DNA from: Aestuariibaculum sediminum
GTDB lineage: Bacteria > Bacteroidota > Bacteroidia > Flavobacteriales > Flavobacteriaceae
Length of the DNA stretch: 64,000 bases
Reading direction: 5' to 3'
Assembly (NCBI RefSeq): GCF_014596945.1
Contig: NZ_JACVXB010000001.1
Span: 62,001 to 126,000 of the forward strand
This document shows positions 17,065 through 41,103 of the stretch, piece after piece. The notes beneath the pieces are model-generated. The model was not told the DNA's origin and did no database searches. It saw nothing but the letters and a program-made list of their open reading frames with translations. Each line of letters begins with the position of its first letter. Position 1 is the first letter of the stretch. The position numbers and the translations under genes were made by a program.

Positions 17065-17456
17065 GGGGTCGACTGGTTTTGACAGCGAGATTAATTGAAC
17101 GGTAAGCACGTCGTGTAATGATTTTGAAACACGTAAAAGGCTAAATCGAACTTTAAACGGCGAGAATAACTACGCTTTAGCTGCTTAATCTGAATTATAG
17201 TAAGATTGCCTAGGTACACAAGGTGTACAAGCTAAATGTCTCCGGAAAGCCTTGGTTAACGGCGTTCCTTTTAGAGGCATCGTAAATGTTAACATAGATG
17301 GAGTACTGCTTTGATGCTCTTTCGAAATTTAAGAAGCTAAGCTTGTAAGTAGGTTGTCTTTAACCAGCTTCTAGTCGAAAAACCAAGAAAAGAATAAACG
17401 TGTAGAAAGCCCTTTGGTTACTTGTTTGGACGAGAGTTCGATTCTCTCCGACTCCA
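17065..17456 (+). ncRNA. ssrA: tmRNA (transfer-messenger RNA)
   Basis: The 5' end GGGGTCGACTGGTTTTGACA and the 3' end with GAGTTCGATTCTC and CGACTCCA form the tRNA-like domain: GGGGTCG (17065-17071) pairs with CGACTCC (17449-17455), and the T-arm loop TTCGATT is present. The tag frame is GGC-GAG-AAT-AAC-TAC-GCT-TTA-GCT-GCT-TAA at 17159-17188, giving GENNYALAA after the charged alanine. tmRNA with SmpB frees stalled ribosomes and marks the unfinished protein for proteolysis. CCA does not appear to be encoded after the discriminator A. The length of about 392 bases is normal. Confidence 0.96.
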
Positions 17457-17459
17457 CAA

Positions 17460-32541: not shown

Positions 32542-32572
32542 TTGTTTAATTTTATTTTCATTTCTATATTTG
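32542..32572 (+). promoter_or_regulatory. Predicted trp operon promoter
   Basis: TTG at 32542-32544 and TATATTTG at 32565-32572 are separated by 20 bases and match the Bacteroidota -33/-7 consensus. Transcription would start near 32578, about 13 bases before the leader peptide ATG. Confidence 0.75.
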
Positions 32573-32590
32573 GAGCTCACAAATAAAAAC

Positions 32591-32647
32591 ATGAAAATAA
32601 TTTTAAATAATATTTGGTGGTGGCACTTTACAAACTCTGGTTCGTGA
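32591..32647 (+). CDS. trpL: trp leader peptide (three consecutive Trp codons)
   Basis: An 18-codon ORF reads MKIILNNIWWWHFTNSGS and stops at TGA 32645-32647. The three TGG codons are at 32615-32623. It lies 25 bases downstream of the predicted promoter and about 35 bases before an intrinsic terminator, ahead of trpE. This is the layout of ribosome-mediated attenuation: at low tryptophanyl-tRNA the ribosome stalls at the Trp codons. TCGTGAA at 32642-32648 can pair with TTCACGA at 32695-32701 in the terminator, which would serve as antiterminator when the stop region is free. The Trp run is far beyond what chance would give at this position. Confidence 0.9.
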   Translation: MKIILNNIWWWHFTNSGS

Positions 32648-32681
32648 AGCAGACCCCTTATGTATTTAAACCAAAATATTG

Positions 32682-32713
32682 AAAAGGCTTGTCGTTCACG
32701 ACAAGCCTTTTTT
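32682..32713 (+). terminator. trp attenuator terminator
   Basis: AAAAGGCTTGTCGT (32682-32695) pairs with ACGACAAGCCTTTT (32698-32711), with a very small loop and a following T-run. AATATTTGG at 32609-32617, which overlaps the first Trp codon, can pair (one bulged A) with CCAAAATATT at 32671-32680 just before the stem. It lies about 75 bases before trpE. Confidence 0.9.
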
Positions 32714-32788: not shown

Positions 32789-34192
32789 ATGACAAACTAT
32801 AACTTATACACGCATTACAAAAAAATTCTGGCAGACACGATTACGCCTGTTAGTATATACTTAAAAATACGCGACAAATATCCAAACAGTATCTTGTTGG
32901 AAAGTAGCGATTACCATGCTAACGACAATAGTTTTTCTTATATCTGTTTTAACCCAATTGCTTCAATAAAAGTTGAAAATGAAACTATTACGCAAAGTTT
33001 CCCCGACAGAAGTTCTGTAAGCAAATCGATTACAGCGGAAACCGATGTAGCAGAAGAAATACATCAGTTTACCAAACGTTTTGAGGCAAATTCAGATGAA
33101 GATTTCAAATTTATTAACAACGGTATTTTTGGTTACCTTGCTTACGATGCAGTACGATATTTTGAAGATGTTGCCATTAGCAAAAAAGAAAATTCTATTT
33201 CTATCCCCGATGCTTACTACGCGGTTTATCAAAACATAATCGCAATTAATCATCATAAAAATGAAGCTTATATTTTTGCACATTGTTACAATACCGAAAG
33301 TAATATAGACGAAATAGACCACCTAATTAAAGTTCGTAATTTCGCATCATATAATTTCACCTCTAACGGAGATATAACCTCAAACCTTACCGACGACGAA
33401 TACAAAACTCATGTCGAATTAGCCAAAAAACACTGCGCTCGTGGCGATGTATTCCAGCTGGTGCTTTCAAAAAGTTTTACACAAGATTTTAAAGGCGACG
33501 AATTTAATGTATATCGTGCACTACGCAGCATCAACCCGTCACCGTATTTATTTTATTTCGATTACGGCAACTTTAAAATATTCGGTAGTTCGCCCGAGGC
33601 TCAGTTAGTTGTAAGCGATGGTATGGCCGAAATACATCCTATTGCCGGAACCTTTAAACGCACCGGAAATGACACAAAGGATGCCGAATTAGCTCAAAAA
33701 CTGGTTAACGACGACAAAGAAAACGCCGAACATGTGATGTTGGTCGACCTTGCCAGAAACGATTTAAGTCGACACGGCAGCGGTGTAACTGTTAACACCT
33801 ATCGTGAAGTTCAATTTTTCTCACATGTCATCCACCTTGTAAGTAAGGTTACAGGAAAAAAACATACAGAAACTGCAACCATGCAAGTCGTGGCCGACAC
33901 CTTTCCTGCGGGAACTTTAAGTGGAGCTCCAAAACATCGCGCCATGCAACTTATTGAACAATATGAAAAAACAAGCCGCTCATTTTACGGTGGAGCTATC
34001 GGATTTATGGATTTTAACGGCAACTTTAACCACGCGATCATGATACGAACCTTTTTAAGCAAAAACCATCAATTACATTGGCGCGCTGGAGCCGGTATCG
34101 TTTCCAAATCCAGTCCCGAAAGTGAATTACAAGAAGTATATAACAAATTAGGAGCGCTAACCAAAGCCATACAACTGGCAGAAACCATATAA
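32789..34192 (+). CDS. trpE: Anthranilate synthase component I
   Basis: The 467-residue enzyme converts chorismate to anthranilate with ammonia supplied by TrpG. It has the chorismate-binding core: HCARGDVFQLVLSKSF, SPYLFYFDYGNFKIFGSSPE, HPIAGTFKRTGND, LVDLARNDLSRH and GGAIGFMDFNGNF. Near the N-terminus LLESSDYHANDNSFSY is the usual place of the feedback Trp site. A GTG six bases upstream (32783) is an alternative start; the ATG is preferred. The gene follows the leader attenuator and opens the seven-gene trp operon. A dispersed repeat separates it from trpG. Confidence 0.97.
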   Translation: MTNYNLYTHYKKILADTITPVSIYLKIRDKYPNSILLESSDYHANDNSFSYICFNPIASIKVENETITQSFPDRSSVSKSITAETDVAEEIHQFTKRFEANSDEDFKFINNGIFGYLAYDAVRYFEDVAISKKENSISIPDAYYAVYQNIIAINHHKNEAYIFAHCYNTESNIDEIDHLIKVRNFASYNFTSNGDITSNLTDDEYKTHVELAKKHCARGDVFQLVLSKSFTQDFKGDEFNVYRALRSINPSPYLFYFDYGNFKIFGSSPEAQLVVSDGMAEIHPIAGTFKRTGNDTKDAELAQKLVNDDKENAEHVMLVDLARNDLSRHGSGVTVNTYREVQFFSHVIHLVSKVTGKKHTETATMQVVADTFPAGTLSGAPKHRAMQLIEQYEKTSRSFYGGAIGFMDFNGNFNHAIMIRTFLSKNHQLHWRAGAGIVSKSSPESELQEVYNKLGALTKAIQLAETI

Positions 34193-34198
34193 ATTAGG

Positions 34199-34294
34199 GC
34201 GTTACCTTTATCCTGAAATAAATTCAGAATAAAGGTCGGGGTTTCGCAAGTCGCTTTTTTCAAAGAGCGCCAACAATTGCTCAATCCCAAACGC
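34199..34294 (+). repeat. Dispersed GCGTTA...AACGC repeat, copy C (between trpE and trpG)
   Basis: The 96-base element starts GCGTTACC and has a hairpin CCTTTATCCTGAA-ATAAA-TTCAGAATAAAGG (34205-34235). The shared centre TTTCGCAAGTCGCT follows, and the element ends CTCAATCCCAAACGC. It matches copy B at 16969-17043 at both ends and in the centre, but has a different hairpin. It lies seven bases after the trpE stop codon, inside the operon. Confidence 0.75.
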
Positions 34295-34347
34295 AAAACA
34301 AATGAACAAAAACAAACTAAAAACCTTGTTCATCAAGAATTATAAAA

Positions 34348-34914
34348 ATGAAAAAAATATTAGTTATAGATAATTACGACAGTTTTACTTACAATCTTGT
34401 ACATTACTTAGAAGATTTAAACTGCGACGTAACCGTTTTTAGAAACGACAAACTCACTCTAGAAGACGTTAAACCCTTCGATAAAATAGTACTTTCACCG
34501 GGTCCCGGTATTCCAGACGAGGCTGGGTTATTAAAAGACATTATTAAAGTCTATGCGCCCACAAAAAGTATTTTAGGTGTTTGTTTGGGGCAACAAGCCA
34601 TAGGCGAAGTATTTGGAGGTACACTGCAAAATTTAGACGATGTTTATCATGGTGTGGCTACACCAGTTAACATTACAGTAGACGATGAAATTCTGTTTAA
34701 AGGTTTAAACAAACAAATTGAAGTAGGTCGCTACCACTCTTGGGTAGTTAACCCCGATTTACCTGAAGTATTGGAAGCCACTTCGTTCGACGCTAACGGT
34801 CAAGTTATGTCGTTACGACACAGAGTTTACGATGTAAAAGGTGTTCAATATCATCCCGAATCGGTATTGACCCCAGACGGAAAACAAATATTAAAAAACT
34901 GGTTAGAAAATTAG
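34348..34914 (+). CDS. trpG: Anthranilate synthase component II (glutamine amidotransferase)
   Basis: This 188-residue class I glutamine amidotransferase gives ammonia to TrpE. The oxyanion loop is LSPGPGIPDEAG (residues 49-60), the catalytic cysteine is Cys79 in GVCLGQQAIGE, and the His/Glu pair is in GVQYHPESVLTP. It could also serve 4-amino-4-deoxychorismate synthase, as TrpG/PabA does in some bacteria, but its position in the trp operon points to tryptophan synthesis. A spacer of 155 bases with the dispersed repeat separates it from trpE. Confidence 0.95.
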   Translation: MKKILVIDNYDSFTYNLVHYLEDLNCDVTVFRNDKLTLEDVKPFDKIVLSPGPGIPDEAGLLKDIIKVYAPTKSILGVCLGQQAIGEVFGGTLQNLDDVYHGVATPVNITVDDEILFKGLNKQIEVGRYHSWVVNPDLPEVLEATSFDANGQVMSLRHRVYDVKGVQYHPESVLTPDGKQILKNWLEN

Positions 34915-34949
34915 TCTTTAAGACTTCAAACCATTTAGACTAAAAAAAC

Positions 34950-35942
34950 ATGAAAACAATATTAAACCGACTTATAAACCACGAAAGCATCTCTACTGAA
35001 GAAGCCAAACAAGTTCTCGTTAACATATCAAAAGGCGACTACAATCAAAGTCAGATTGCTGCATTTTTAACCGTATACATGATGCGCAGTATAACTTTAG
35101 ACGAATTAAAAGGTTTTAGAGATGCACTTTTGGAGCTTTGTATCCCTATTGACTTAAAAGAGTTTAATGCTATAGATTTGTGTGGTACGGGTGGTGATGG
35201 CAAAAATACGTTTAACATATCTACATTAGCTTCGTTTGTAACGGCTGGTGCTGGGGTAAATGTAGCGAAGCATGGTAATTACGGTGTATCTTCCGCTTGT
35301 GGTTCATCTAATGTAATGGAATATTTAGGTATTAAATTTTCAAACGACGAAGCTTTCCTTAAACGCTGCATAGATAAAGCAGGAATATGCGTACTGCATG
35401 CACCATTGTTTCACCCCGCCATGAAAAACGTGGCACCTATTCGTCGTGAATTGGGCGTAAAAACCTTTTTTAATATGTTAGGGCCTATGGTAAATCCGTC
35501 GTTTCCTAAAAACCAAATGGTAGGCGTTTTCAATTTAGAATTATTAAGACTTTACGGATATTTGTATCAAAACACCGATAAAAATTACAGCGTTGTTCAT
35601 GCCCTCGATGGTTATGATGAAATTTCATTAACGGGTGGCGCAAAAGTTATTTCAAACAATCAGGAAACCATGTTTATACCCGAAGATTTAGGTATTGAAC
35701 AAATCACGCAGCAATCTATTTATGGTGGCAATACAGTTGAAGAGGCTGCTAAAATTTTTGTGAATGTGATTAACGGAAATGGCACAGTACAACAAAACCA
35801 TGTAGTTTGTGCTAATGCTGGATTAGCGATTGCTACGACCAAACAAATTAGCCACAAGGAAGGTTTTGAATTAGCGAAAGAATCCTTACTATCAGGAAAA
35901 GCGAAAGCAAGTTTAGACACATTAATTGAATTAAGTAAATAA
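34950..35942 (+). CDS. trpD: Anthranilate phosphoribosyltransferase
   Basis: The 330-residue enzyme joins anthranilate with phosphoribosyl pyrophosphate. Its landmarks are the PRPP loop LCGTGGDGKNTFNIST, the KHGNYGVSSACGSSNVME segment that follows, and HPAMKNVAPIRRELGVKTFFN, which holds the anthranilate site. A fusion with TrpG, seen in enterobacteria, is not present here. It begins 35 bases after trpG. A spacer of 69 bases with two hairpins separates it from trpC. Confidence 0.97.
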   Translation: MKTILNRLINHESISTEEAKQVLVNISKGDYNQSQIAAFLTVYMMRSITLDELKGFRDALLELCIPIDLKEFNAIDLCGTGGDGKNTFNISTLASFVTAGAGVNVAKHGNYGVSSACGSSNVMEYLGIKFSNDEAFLKRCIDKAGICVLHAPLFHPAMKNVAPIRRELGVKTFFNMLGPMVNPSFPKNQMVGVFNLELLRLYGYLYQNTDKNYSVVHALDGYDEISLTGGAKVISNNQETMFIPEDLGIEQITQQSIYGGNTVEEAAKIFVNVINGNGTVQQNHVVCANAGLAIATTKQISHKEGFELAKESLLSGKAKASLDTLIELSK

Positions 35943-35976
35943 AAAAATTTGCTGAATGCATTTCAGCTTCACAAAT

Positions 35977-36007
35977 AATGAGAACCTGAAACAAGTTCAG
36001 GTTGACG
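35977..36007 (-). repeat. REP-like CAACCTGAA hairpin, copy 2 (between trpD and trpC)
   Basis: AACCTGAA (35983-35990) and TTCAGGTT (35996-36003) form a perfect 8-base stem around ACAAG. On the minus strand the element reads CAACCTGAACTTGTTTCAGG and on to TTCTCATT, the same as copy 1 at 10354-10381 apart from a few substitutions. A second small hairpin, GCTGAA-TGCAT-TTCAGC at 35951-35967, stands next to the trpD stop. Because no T-run follows, termination is unlikely. Confidence 0.6.
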
Positions 36008-36011
36008 AAAA

Positions 36012-36797
36012 ATGAATATACTAGATAAAATAACCGCCGACAAAAAGAACGAAGTTGCGTTACGAAAATCGTTAATCCCAACCTCGCAATTGGAGCAATC
36101 GGTATTATTCAACAGAACAACAATTTCCTTAGCCAAAAAACTTAGAACGAGCAATACAGGCATTATCGCCGAGCATAAACGTCGTTCGCCATCAAAATCG
36201 GTTATCAATCACAATTTAAATGTAAACGATGTTGCCCAAGGCTACGAAAATGCTGGCGTTTGCGGTATGTCTGTTTTAACCGATGGCAAATATTTTGGAG
36301 GCTCTTTAGACGATTTATTACTGGCGCGTGCCTCATGTAATTTACCATTATTACGTAAAGAGTTTATTATAGACGAATACCAACTACTGGAAGCCAAAGC
36401 TTACGGCGCCGATGTTATTCTGCTCATCGCTGCTATTTTAAGCAGAGATGAGATAAAACGATTTTCAGAATTTGCAAAAAGCTTGAACCTTGACGTGTTG
36501 TTAGAAGTGCACAACGAAGAAGAACTCAACAAAAGCATCATGCCAAGTTTAGATATGCTGGGCGTAAATAACCGAAACCTTAAAACCTTCGACGTGAGTT
36601 TAGAGACCAGCAAATCTTTAAGCCAGCAAATTCCAGACGATTTTGTAAAAGTATCCGAAAGTGGCATAAGTAATATCGACGCCATTAAAGCATTAAAACC
36701 TTTTGGTTACCAAGGATTTTTAATTGGTGAAAATTTTATGAAAACCAATAACGCTGGCGAGAGTGCAGCGCAATTTATAAAAGAACTGAAGTCATGA
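36012..36797 (+). CDS. trpC: Indole-3-glycerol phosphate synthase
   Basis: The 261-residue TIM-barrel enzyme cyclises and decarboxylates carboxyphenylamino-deoxyribulose phosphate. Diagnostic segments are AEHKRRSPSKSVIN near residue 57-70, LPLLRKEFIIDEYQLLEAKAYGAD, LEVHNEEEL, GVNNRNLKTF and SESGISN, which together supply the catalytic Lys and Glu residues and the phosphate site. The start lies five bases after the REP-like hairpin. Its stop codon overlaps the trpF start by four bases (ATGA), a sign of translational coupling. Confidence 0.97.
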   Translation: MNILDKITADKKNEVALRKSLIPTSQLEQSVLFNRTTISLAKKLRTSNTGIIAEHKRRSPSKSVINHNLNVNDVAQGYENAGVCGMSVLTDGKYFGGSLDDLLLARASCNLPLLRKEFIIDEYQLLEAKAYGADVILLIAAILSRDEIKRFSEFAKSLNLDVLLEVHNEEELNKSIMPSLDMLGVNNRNLKTFDVSLETSKSLSQQIPDDFVKVSESGISNIDAIKALKPFGYQGFLIGENFMKTNNAGESAAQFIKELKS

Positions 36798-37444
36798 AGT
36801 TAAAAATTTGCGGCATGAAATACCAAGATAATATCCAAGCGGTAGCAGCTTTGCAGCCCGATTATTTAGGATTTATCTTTTATGAGACATCAGCAAGATA
36901 TTTCAATTCAGCTATTCCAAATATTTCTAAAACTATAAAAAAGACAGGGGTTTTTGTGAATGAAACTTTAGATGTGGTTCATGAAAAAATTAAAACATAC
37001 AACCTACAAGCCGTTCAATTACATGGCGAAGAATTGCCCGAATATTGCGAAAGATTAAGAGATACAATCTTGTCTGGCGGAGTCGAGATAATAAAAGTAT
37101 TTTCAATAAAAGACGACTTCAAATTCGACCAATTAGAACCTTATGAAACGGTTTGCGATTTCTTCTTGTTTGATACCAAAGGAAAATTACCTGGAGGCAA
37201 TGGTTACACCTTCAATTGGGATGTATTAAATAAGTATCCTTCAACAAAACCTTATTTTTTAAGCGGAGGCATAGGCTTGGAAGAAACTGAGAAATTAAAA
37301 TCATTTTATAAAAGTCCGGCATCAAAATACTGTTACGCTATTGATGTAAACAGTAAATTTGAAATTGAACCAGGCCTAAAAGATACAGAACAACTAAAAC
37401 AATTTATTAATCGGATTAGAAAATTAAATTCGAGTAGGCACTAA
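36794..37444 (+). CDS. trpF: Phosphoribosylanthranilate isomerase
   Basis: The 216-residue TIM-barrel isomerase begins MKLKICGMKYQDNI, where Cys5 is in the place of the catalytic base of the family. The general acid is the Asp in FFLFDTKGKLPGGNG, which is followed by a phosphate-binding FLSGGIGLEE. It overlaps trpC by four bases. It is a separate protein here and not fused to TrpC. The C-terminal extension is basic (NRIRKLNSSRH). It gives the substrate for TrpC. Confidence 0.95.
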   Translation: MKLKICGMKYQDNIQAVAALQPDYLGFIFYETSARYFNSAIPNISKTIKKTGVFVNETLDVVHEKIKTYNLQAVQLHGEELPEYCERLRDTILSGGVEIIKVFSIKDDFKFDQLEPYETVCDFFLFDTKGKLPGGNGYTFNWDVLNKYPSTKPYFLSGGIGLEETEKLKSFYKSPASKYCYAIDVNSKFEIEPGLKDTEQLKQFINRIRKLNSSRH

Positions 37445-37477
37445 GCCAAAATTTTCTAACTTATTAAAAGAAATAAA

Positions 37478-38659
37478 ATGAACTATAACGTAAATGAAAA
37501 AGGGTATTATGGCGAATTTGGAGGTGCCTTTATTCCTGAAATGCTTTACCCAAACGTAGAAGAATTACGCCAAAATTATTTAAAAGTTATGGCCGAGCCT
37601 TCTTTTCAGCAGGAATTTAATCAACTACTAAAAGATTATGTGGGTCGCCCGTCGCCTTTATATTTTGCCAAACGCTTATCTGAAAAATACAATACCAAAA
37701 TTTATTTGAAGCGCGAAGACCTAAATCATACTGGAGCACATAAAATCAACAATACCATTGGGCAAATTCTTATGGCAAAACGTTTGGGCAAAACCCGCAT
37801 TATTGCCGAAACTGGTGCTGGACAGCATGGTGTGGCCACTGCCACGGTTTGTGCATTAATGGGATTAGAATGTATAGTATACATGGGCGAAATTGATATT
37901 GCTCGCCAAGCGCCAAATGTAGCCCGCATGAAAATGTTAGGCGCAAGCGTAATTCCTGCAAAATCGGGTAGTCGCACACTAAAAGATGCCACCAACGAAG
38001 CCATTCGCGATTGGATAAACAACCCCGTAAACACCCATTATATTATTGGGTCGGCCATTGGACCACACCCCTACCCCGATATGGTAACTCGATTTCAGTC
38101 GGTAATTTCAGAAGAAATTAAATCGCAATTAAAGGAACATGAAGGTCGCGAAAACCCAGATTATGTGGTAGCTTGTATTGGCGGTGGAAGTAACGCTGCT
38201 GGCACATATTATCATTTTTTACATGAAGAAGATGTTAATATTATTGCGGTTGAAGCAGCTGGCCATGGTGTCGATTCTGGTGAAAGTGCGGCAACTTCCA
38301 TATTAGGAAAAGAAGGTGTTATTCATGGTTGTAAAACCCTATTAATGCAAACTAACGACGGACAAATTACTGAGCCCTATTCCATTTCCGCAGGTTTAGA
38401 TTACCCTGGCGTTGGCCCCATGCATGCGCATTTATGCAAAACTGGACGCGCTGAATTTATGGCCATAACCGACGACGATGCCATGAATGCAGGCCTCGAA
38501 TTATGTAAATTGGAAGGTATTATACCTGCTATAGAAAGTTCGCATGCCTTAGCCATTTTCGAACAAAAACCCTTTAAACCAGACGATGTTGTTGTAGTTA
38601 GTTTATCGGGACGCGGTGATAAAGATTTACAGAATTATATTGATTATTTTAAGATATAA
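37478..38659 (+). CDS. trpB: Tryptophan synthase beta chain
   Basis: The 393-residue PLP enzyme joins indole with serine to form tryptophan. Lys89 in [13 protein letters not shown] is the PLP Schiff-base lysine, and the phosphate is held by [12 protein letters not shown] near residue 228-239. The N-terminal [14 protein letters not shown] and the segment [14 protein letters not shown] are typical for the TrpB1 type that pairs with TrpA. It lies 33 bases after trpF and eight bases before trpA. Confidence 0.97.
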
Positions 38660-38667
38660 CAATTACA

Positions 38668-39429
38668 ATGAACAGAATACAGCAAAAAATACAAGAAGAT
38701 AAAAAATTACTATCTATATATTTTACCGCAGGTTACCCCAACTTAAACGATACGGTAACCATAATTGAAGATTTAGAAAAAAACGGAGTTGATTTAATTG
38801 AAATCGGTTTACCGTTTAGCGACCCGTTAGCTGATGGCCCAACCATTCAAGACAGCTCAACAAAAGCATTGAAAAATGGCATGACGACCGAAACGCTTTT
38901 TAATCAATTAAAGGATATTCGCAAAACCGTAAATATTCCGTTAATTATTATGGGATATTTCAATCCTATGTTACAATATGGGGTTGAAGCATTTTGTAAA
39001 AAGTGTGCGGAGATTGGTATCGACGGATTAATCATCCCCGATTTACCTGTTGATGTATATCACGAAGAATACAAAGCTATTTTCGATACATACGGATTAA
39101 TTAACGTGTTTTTAATAACGCCACAAACAAGCGATGATCGTATTCGATTTATCGATTCTATCTCTAACGGATTTATCTATATGGTGAGTAGTGCCAGCGT
39201 AACGGGTAGTCAGTCTGGATTTGGAGATGAACAAAAAGCTTATTTCAAGCGTATTGCCGATATGCAATTAAAAAATCCACAAATTGTTGGCTTTGGCATT
39301 AACAATAATGACACCTTTGCTCAAGCCACTTCGTATGCGCAAGGTGCTATTATAGGAAGTGCATTTATAAAGCATTTAACTGAAAAAGGCACCAATCAAA
39401 TTGAAAAATTTGTAAAAACTATTCGATAA
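38668..39429 (+). CDS. trpA: Tryptophan synthase alpha chain
   Basis: The 253-residue TIM-barrel protein cleaves indole-3-glycerol phosphate to indole, which is channelled to TrpB. LIEIGLPFSDPLADGPTIQ holds the catalytic Glu45 and Asp56, which correspond to Glu49 and Asp60 of the E. coli enzyme. The phosphate is bound near GFGINNND and GAIIGSAF. It is the last gene of the trp operon. A weak hairpin at about 39488-39520 may end the transcript before the GNAT/nitrilase gene. Confidence 0.97.
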   Translation: MNRIQQKIQEDKKLLSIYFTAGYPNLNDTVTIIEDLEKNGVDLIEIGLPFSDPLADGPTIQDSSTKALKNGMTTETLFNQLKDIRKTVNIPLIIMGYFNPMLQYGVEAFCKKCAEIGIDGLIIPDLPVDVYHEEYKAIFDTYGLINVFLITPQTSDDRIRFIDSISNGFIYMVSSASVTGSQSGFGDEQKAYFKRIADMQLKNPQIVGFGINNNDTFAQATSYAQGAIIGSAFIKHLTEKGTNQIEKFVKTIR

Positions 39430-39582: not shown

Positions 39583-41103
39583 ATGGAAGACATTGAAAAC
39601 ATTGAATTAGCCTACCTAAGTTTAAATGATTACGATGAATTAAAGGAGGCGATGATCGCTTCTTATTCTACTATGCCTGATGCCTATTGGCGTGAATTTC
39701 AGATAAAAAAACTCATCGACATGTTCCCTGAAGGTCAGGTAGTTATAAAGGTTAACAATCAAATTGCGGGTTGCGCGTTATGTATTATTGTCGATTATGA
39801 TAAATTTGGAGACAACCACACTTACAAGGATATAACGGGCAACTATACTTTTAACACGCATAACCCCAAAGGTGATATAATTTATGGTATAGAGATATTT
39901 ATTAAACCTGAATTTCGCGGCTTACGCTTAGGCAGAAGGCTTTACGATTATCGCAAAGAACTATGCGAACGGTTAAATTTAAAAGGTTTAGCCTTTGGCG
40001 GGAGAATTCCAAACTACAAACAATATGCCGAGACCTTAAGTCCTAAAGAATATATTGCTAAAGTACGAAGCAAAGAAATTAATGATCCTGTACTTAACTT
40101 TCAAATATCTAACGACTTCCACCCCACCCGGATAATCAAAAATTATTTGGAAGGCGATGTCGATTCAAAAGATTATGCGGTGCTTTTAGAGTGGGATAAT
40201 ATCTATTACGAAAAAGAAACCCAACAAGCAGCAACCATAAAGAAAATTGTACGTCTAGGCCTAATTCAATGGCAAATGCGCACTTATAAAGATTTAGACG
40301 AACTCATGCATCAGGCCGAATTTTTTGTTGATGCCGTTTCTGGCTACCGGAGTGATTTTGCTTTGTTCCCGGAGTTCTTTAATGCACCTCTGATGGCAGA
40401 AAACAATCATATGTCTACCCCAGATGCCATAAGAGAATTAGCTAAACATACATCGGAAATCGTACAAAGGTTTTCAAAATTAGCCATCAGTTATAATATT
40501 AATATCATAACGGGTAGTATGCCAGAAATGGTAAACGACAAATTGTACAATGTTGGATATTTGTGCCGACGCGATGGGTCTATGGAACGTTACGAAAAAC
40601 TTCACGTAACGCCCGACGAAGCAAAAGTCTGGGGCATGGTAGGTGGCAACAAGCTTAATACTTTTGAAACCGACTGTGGCAAAATTGGGGTTTTAATCTG
40701 CTACGACTCCGAATTTCCTGAATTAAGCCGTTTACTGGCCGATGAAGGCATGGATATTTTATTTGTTCCCTTTTTAACCGACACTCAAAACGGGTATTCT
40801 CGTGTCCGTCACTGTGCACAGGCTCGAGCTATTGAAAATGAATGCTATGTCGCCATTGCTGGTAGTGTTGGTAATTTGCCAAAGGTGGAAAATATGGACA
40901 TACAATATGCACAATCTATGGTATTTACACCCTGTGATTTTGCCTTTCCTACCAATGGCATAAAGGCTGAAGCAACACCTAACACCGAAATGATTTTAAT
41001 TGCTGATGTAGATATCGATTTACTTCGAGAACTGAATCAATTTGGAAGTGTTAAAAACCTGAAAGACCGTAGAAAAGACATTTTCAACCTAAAAAAATTG
41101 TAG
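39583..41103 (+). CDS. GNAT acetyltransferase fused to a carbon-nitrogen hydrolase
   Basis: The 506-residue protein has two domains. Residues 1 to about 220 form a GNAT-type acyltransferase with GIEIFIKPEFRGLRLGRRLY, where RGLRLGR is the acetyl-CoA loop. Residues from about 225 onward form a nitrilase-type hydrolase with its Glu-Lys-Cys triad: FALFPEFFNAP, MERYEKLHVTPDE and GVLICYDSEFPE. Bifunctional proteins of this layout are known in bacteria, but the substrate is not. A likely scheme is release of a carboxylate or ammonia from an amide next to an N-acylation step. It follows trpA by 153 bases on the same strand and may or may not be read from the trp transcript. Confidence 0.85.
   Translation: MEDIENIELAYLSLNDYDELKEAMIASYSTMPDAYWREFQIKKLIDMFPEGQVVIKVNNQIAGCALCIIVDYDKFGDNHTYKDITGNYTFNTHNPKGDIIYGIEIFIKPEFRGLRLGRRLYDYRKELCERLNLKGLAFGGRIPNYKQYAETLSPKEYIAKVRSKEINDPVLNFQISNDFHPTRIIKNYLEGDVDSKDYAVLLEWDNIYYEKETQQAATIKKIVRLGLIQWQMRTYKDLDELMHQAEFFVDAVSGYRSDFALFPEFFNAPLMAENNHMSTPDAIRELAKHTSEIVQRFSKLAISYNINIITGSMPEMVNDKLYNVGYLCRRDGSMERYEKLHVTPDEAKVWGMVGGNKLNTFETDCGKIGVLICYDSEFPELSRLLADEGMDILFVPFLTDTQNGYSRVRHCAQARAIENECYVAIAGSVGNLPKVENMDIQYAQSMVFTPCDFAFPTNGIKAEATPNTEMILIADVDIDLLRELNQFGSVKNLKDRRKDIFNLKKL

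Follow-up and report, generated by a model that had tools for sequence, protein, structure and literature searches.

How does Aestuariibaculum sediminum control transcription of its tryptophan biosynthesis genes? In the window (the whole stretch of 64,000 nucleotides analyzed here), the trp operon is preceded by a short open reading frame with three Trp codons and by a predicted intrinsic terminator, which raises the question of attenuation. Attenuation of the Escherichia coli trp operon is ribosome-mediated, and the same logic is proposed here for the A. sediminum leader. Merino and colleagues reportedly may have described trp attenuators of Bacteroidota in 2008. We consider the leader very probably to be a ribosome-mediated transcription attenuator of the trp operon and a member of the Bacteroid-trp RNA family. 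This prediction is based on the parts of the leader, their conservation, spacing and complementarity, the matching of one segment (segment 2) to the terminator across families, and computed folding. The type of device is familiar, whereas its antiterminator layout is unusual.

Parts of the trp leader and the Bacteroid-trp family

The leader and operon comprise the following features.

32542-32572, + strand: Bacteroidota-type promoter, TTG (32542-32544), 20 nt, and TATATTTG of the form TAnnTTTG (32565-32572); from sequence and relatives
32571-32693, + strand: match to Rfam RF01692 (Bacteroid-trp), 66 bits with a gathering score of 49, ending within the terminator 5' arm
32591-32647, + strand: leader peptide ORF of 18 codons, MKIILNNIWWWHFTNSGS, from ATG 32591-32593 to TGA 32645-32647; from sequence and relatives
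32602-32670, + strand: outer stem, 5' side 32602-32621 (Trp codons inside), 3' side 32653-32670; from the minimum-energy fold
32615-32623, + strand: putative sensing codons, three Trp, TGGTGGTGG; from sequence and relatives
32626-32649, + strand: predicted protector hairpin, segment 1 CUUUAC (32626-32631) with segment 2 GUGAAG (32644-32649); from the fold and a shuffle control
32642-32648, + strand: segment 2, TCGTGAA, the predicted 5' strand of the antiterminator, overlapping the leader stop codon; from complementarity, conservation, spacing and folding
32682-32713, + strand: predicted intrinsic terminator, 13-bp stem 32682-32694/32699-32711, loop TTCA, T-run 32708-32713; from sequence, fold and relatives
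32695-32701, + strand: target of segment 2, TTCACGA, made of the terminator loop and the first three bases of the 3' arm; from complementarity
32789-39429, + strand: putatively regulated operon trpE-trpG-trpD-trpC-trpF-trpB-trpA; from NCBIfam matches and ORFs

The promoter, the 18-codon ORF and its three Trp codons lie where the earlier note placed them. The terminator stem with its T-run before trpE and the complementarity of TCGTGAA to TTCACGA are also as it described, and NCBIfam matches bear out its seven downstream trp genes. Two elements were absent from that account, namely the protector hairpin, which shares segment 2, and the RF01692 match. The start codon of trpE is the ATG at 32789; the best-matching NCBIfam model identifies this gene at 428 bits, below the strict cut-off of 517.7, and the closest named TrpE among the matches listed is that of Flavivirga rizhaonensis (89% identical). 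Downstream of trpA, the + strand at 39583-41103 encodes an N-terminal acetyltransferase-like part (recognized by eye) joined to a nitrilase/amidase-like C-terminal domain. Elsewhere in the window, a tmRNA gene lies at 17065-17459 on the + strand (Rfam RF00023, 138.7 bits).

The 148-nt leader is more stably folded than expected (z -4.94), and none of 200 shuffles was equally good. The terminator sequence at 32682-32711 reads AAAAGGCTTGTCG/TTCA/CGACAAGCCTTTT, and four of the six T in the T-run are also counted as stem. A simple terminator scan reported this hairpin for the - strand only, since on the + strand it assigns most of the T-run to the stem. A sigma-70 scan, which looks for a different consensus, missed the TAnnTTTG promoter. 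On the - strand, where the hairpin is also terminator-like, a leftward transcript is possible, but no gene of that strand ends just ahead of it.

The trp leader belongs to the catalogued family Bacteroid-trp, RF01692. The match covers model positions 1-131 with an E-value of 2.9e-8 (301 bases searched) and exceeds the curated gathering score. Family and leader share the trp genes downstream, the Trp-codon leader and the outer and inner stems, and the outer stem of the Rfam model structure falls at the same place as in our fold. They differ in that the model stops at 32693, inside the terminator 5' arm and just short of the segment-2 target; closure of the terminator and pairing with segment 2 are therefore absent from it. 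The other Rfam candidates here (S15-Flavobacteria at 30.5 bits, AbsR25 and others) were all under their gathering scores and were rejected. In the available portion of Weinberg et al. (2010; PMC2864571), Bacteroid-trp has a row in Table 1 and is put forward as a candidate cis-regulatory RNA of Bacteroidetes. The available text of PMC6414381 places it upstream of the trp operon of Flavobacterium psychrophilum and compares it with E. coli, and that of PMC9723704, on the F. psychrophilum transcriptome and its structured 5' elements, reports strong clues for leader-peptide attenuation before amino-acid operons. These portions of the three papers yielded no direct test of trp attenuation. No description of the antiterminator pairing was found in the literature passages covered; outside these, Lopatovskaya et al. 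(2010) and Merino et al. (2008) may treat trp attenuators of Bacteroidota, which limits any claim that the layout is new.

Conservation of the leader and of segment 2

A search for trpE in 149 Flavobacteriaceae genomes, including that of A. sediminum, gave 136 places. Three were left out as partial (G066, G079 and G147), leaving 133 with our own, and the regions of 132 relatives were fetched. One of these, G082, had 143 nt upstream and was left out of the full-upstream set of 131 relatives. A mini-ORF with WW(W) is present in 130 of the 131 and absent in G035. A terminator follows 130 of 131 leaders, own included, the exception under the script rules being G016. TAnnTTTG lies within the 75 nt preceding the leader start in 127/131 leaders, where about 9.6 are expected from mononucleotide shuffles. 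In 29 of the 131 it starts only 12-13 nt before the predicted leader start, which may make these leader mRNAs leaderless or almost leaderless. Among named loci (74 of 80 used, the other six having less than 400 nt upstream), which may overlap the other genome sample, leader and terminator were present in 74/74, and the loop plus 3' arm was used in 69.

Segment 2 is held at a nearly constant distance from the Trp codons. TCGTGA or a close variant was located in 117 of 130 leaders, and in 110 of those 117 the distance from the first Trp codon to its start is 26-28 nt. The start of the stop codon varies from -13 to +8 nt relative to segment 2 (116/117 leaders), which would place segment 2 beneath a terminating ribosome. 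TCGTGA is retained in differing frames, its TGA serving as the stop codon or not, and the constraint therefore looks like one on RNA rather than on peptide. The logic of ribosome-mediated attenuation put forward in the earlier note fits this narrow spacing of Trp codons, segment 2 and stop codon, and also the matching of segment 2 to the terminator across families.

Within Flavobacteriaceae, 805 of 895 alignment cells preserve the pairing of segment 2 with the terminator, compared to 16-48% in four slid controls. Changes on both sides were seen in 11 cells, and two of the seven pairs score above all 300 column shuffles; such changes are few because the pairing hardly varies in the family. The earlier note had proposed looking in trpE leaders of relatives for conserved Trp codons and covarying stems. 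Codons and terminator are each conserved in 130/131, and covariation in the column test stood out for those two pairs. Among diverged members, joint change is visible by eye in G042 (GGATTCAG/CTGAATCC), G128 (ACCGGAT/ATCCGGT), G043 (TTGTCGCAAT/ATTGCGACAA) and G064 (TGCGATGAT/GTCATCGCG). The segment-2 helix is unconvincing in G052, G060 and G122 and weak in G010, G047, G065 and G067. An unrestricted helix test within the family gave some rows, such as G018 and G001, a best partner in the Trp codons, a choice barred in later scripts; it gave a mean of 16.9 for real leaders, 16.0 for swapped and 12.0 for shuffled ones. The swap is uninformative here because most terminators share TCACGA, and a permutation was consequently run on leaders outside Flavobacteriaceae.

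The sample outside the family comprised 37 places, of which 33 were fetched (G468, G487, G442 and G538 are missing). Leader ORFs were picked by eye, and a Trp-rich leader was recognized in 28 of the 33 trpE upstream regions; the places without one were G496, G457, G526, G439 and G489 (191 nt). The permutation set of 29 consisted of these 28 leaders and G423, the family members G234, G368 and G199 having been dropped, and segment 2 was sought between 18 and 40 nt downstream of the first Trp codon. Summed pairing was 528, compared to 454 for the best of 2000 terminator permutations, a test that counts sequences rather than independent events. Real pairing was greater than the mean of a leader's own swaps in 25/29. 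In the unrestricted row-by-row swap test, p was 0.10 or less in 13 of 32 leaders, and G518, G160, G510, G533 and G368 stood at p 0.58-0.73. As judged from these sequences, segment 2 changes together with its terminator between lineages. RF01692 itself, searched with strict filters in 296 genomes of the phylum, matched in 30, two of them outside Flavobacteriaceae. The model thus seems to miss many Bacteroidota trp leaders, the two fractions (28/33 and 30/296) coming from different genome samples.

Folding and the proposed mechanism

From these features we infer ribosome stalling, delay of termination and a response to tryptophan, which would proceed as follows. With no ribosome on the leader, the outer stem and protector hairpin would hold segment 2, and the terminator would form. 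When Trp-tRNA is ample, a ribosome at the stop codon would cover segment 2, with the same outcome. When Trp-tRNA is scarce, the ribosome would halt at the Trp codons and cover part or all of segment 1, freeing segment 2. The freed segment would pair with the emerging terminator loop and the first bases of the 3' arm and so delay nucleation of the hairpin, and RNA polymerase would continue into trpE.

Folding of partial transcripts, as the earlier note had suggested doing with ribosome-covered segments, agrees with this scheme. We folded 130 leaders ending 4 nt into the 3' arm, with the ribosome modeled as 15 nt covered, counted from the first A-site base; the folding model excludes pseudoknots. 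Mean antiterminator probability was 0.28 in the free state, 0.94 with a ribosome at the first Trp codon and 0.007 with a ribosome at the stop codon, the last value being nearly forced by the masking. The ribosome-free state still prefers the antiterminator in 36/130 leaders. Shuffling the upstream part raised the mean free probability from 0.28 to 0.76, and the real value was below the shuffled one in 116 of 130, indicating that the upstream part holds segment 2 back. Alignment columns give the protector hairpin 362 of 776 cells, no better than the 44-50% of slid controls, so support for the protector comes from folding, from the shuffle control and from the Rfam structure. For A. sediminum, the free antiterminator probability was 0.17; four more upstream bases brought it to 0.50 at the same 3' end and to 0.74 one base earlier. 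In the model, protection in this leader looks weak and sensitive to the chosen 5' end.

The outcome depends on how far the transcript has grown. On the A. sediminum leader, a stalled ribosome keeps the antiterminator in the lead up to 32705, with a switch to the terminator at 32706-32707. If the ribosome is absent or sits at the stop codon, the terminator leads from 32703 at the latest. Across the 130 leaders with a stalled ribosome, the median length of 3' arm after which antiterminator probability falls below 0.5 is 8 nt. At full length, the A. sediminum terminator is favored in every ribosome state, and to this extent the expected folding contrast is limited to partial transcripts. The finished terminator is more stable than the antiterminator; thus, antitermination would have to be kinetic.

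Predicted antiterminator layout in trp, his and phe leaders

In trpE leaders of Flavobacteriaceae, segment 2 takes the loop and 3' arm of the terminator in 119 of 130 and the 5' arm in four; in A. sediminum it takes four loop bases and three of the 3' arm. Leaders of hisG and pheA in the same family are built alike, with a short ORF rich in the product amino acid followed by a terminator and a competing segment. They differ in the partner of segment 2, which is the 5' arm in 27 of 29 hisG leaders (29 of 30 loci classified) and in 19 of 21 pheA leaders (21 of 30 loci classified; the other nine had no leader, and in three of these the gene was not at the expected place). E. coli trpL shares the tandem-Trp leader peptide, the terminator before trpE and the competing segment, but under the same rules its segment 2 takes five bases of the terminator 5' arm. 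The A. sediminum leader does not have this E. coli-type layout, and the earlier note was right that the pairings differ. Among the 29 trp leaders outside Flavobacteriaceae, the 5' arm is used in 19 and the 3' arm in five (including G155, G380 and G530); use of the 3' arm is therefore typical of Flavobacteriaceae trp leaders and not unique to them. We lean toward the reading that the Flavobacteriaceae antiterminator captures the loop and the start of the 3' arm and so blocks nucleation, a lineage shift from the 5'-arm form commoner in other Bacteroidia.

The A. sediminum genome carries comparable leaders elsewhere. At locus L213 (contig C14, near 627110), a His leader, MKFIQNHHHHFQICSQAN, and a terminator lie upstream of hisG, and the antiterminator takes the 5' arm. 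At L232 (contig C17, near 73522), a Phe/Tyr-rich leader, MTRTVYYTYFSFWFYFFFSKRNEA, and a terminator precede a prephenate dehydratase gene.

Alternatively, segment 2 and the loop could form a kissing pseudoknot alongside a closed lower terminator stem, without blocking termination; release would then come mainly from another step, for example from the stalled ribosome. The contest involves no more than three stem bases, so the remaining stem could still close, and the full-length preference for the A. sediminum terminator in every ribosome state points the same way. If the pairing aided termination, however, starvation would turn the operon off, and the corresponding pairing in the majority of hisG and pheA leaders involves the 5' arm, where it must compete with the stem. 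We regard the pseudoknot as unlikely.

Control by another route, through an RNA-binding protein or a leader peptide acting in trans with the terminator merely setting a basal level, appears very improbable. A precedent is Sinorhizobium peTrpL, a leader peptide reported, in the part of the source available, to act in trans, and residues near WWW do recur by eye in the peptides of relatives (NNT before, R after). Yet the peptide ends vary among relatives while the spacing from Trp codons to segment 2 is nearly fixed, a family search of the A. sediminum genome gave no match to TrpR or TRAP, and the matching of segment 2 to the terminator calls for an RNA explanation. An unregulated leader, with an incidental ORF and a terminator that only lowers trp expression, is hardly credible, as consecutive Trp codons in 130 of 131 relatives and the narrow spacing are unexpected without selection.

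Ribosome-mediated attenuation by capture of the terminator loop thus remains the preferred reading. It implies that the Rfam model of a family known from sequence alone omits a conserved antiterminator, one that changes together with the terminator between lineages. Comparing trp leaders with his/phe leaders in Flavobacteriaceae would offer a clean test of nucleation block at the loop against pre-emption of the 5' arm.
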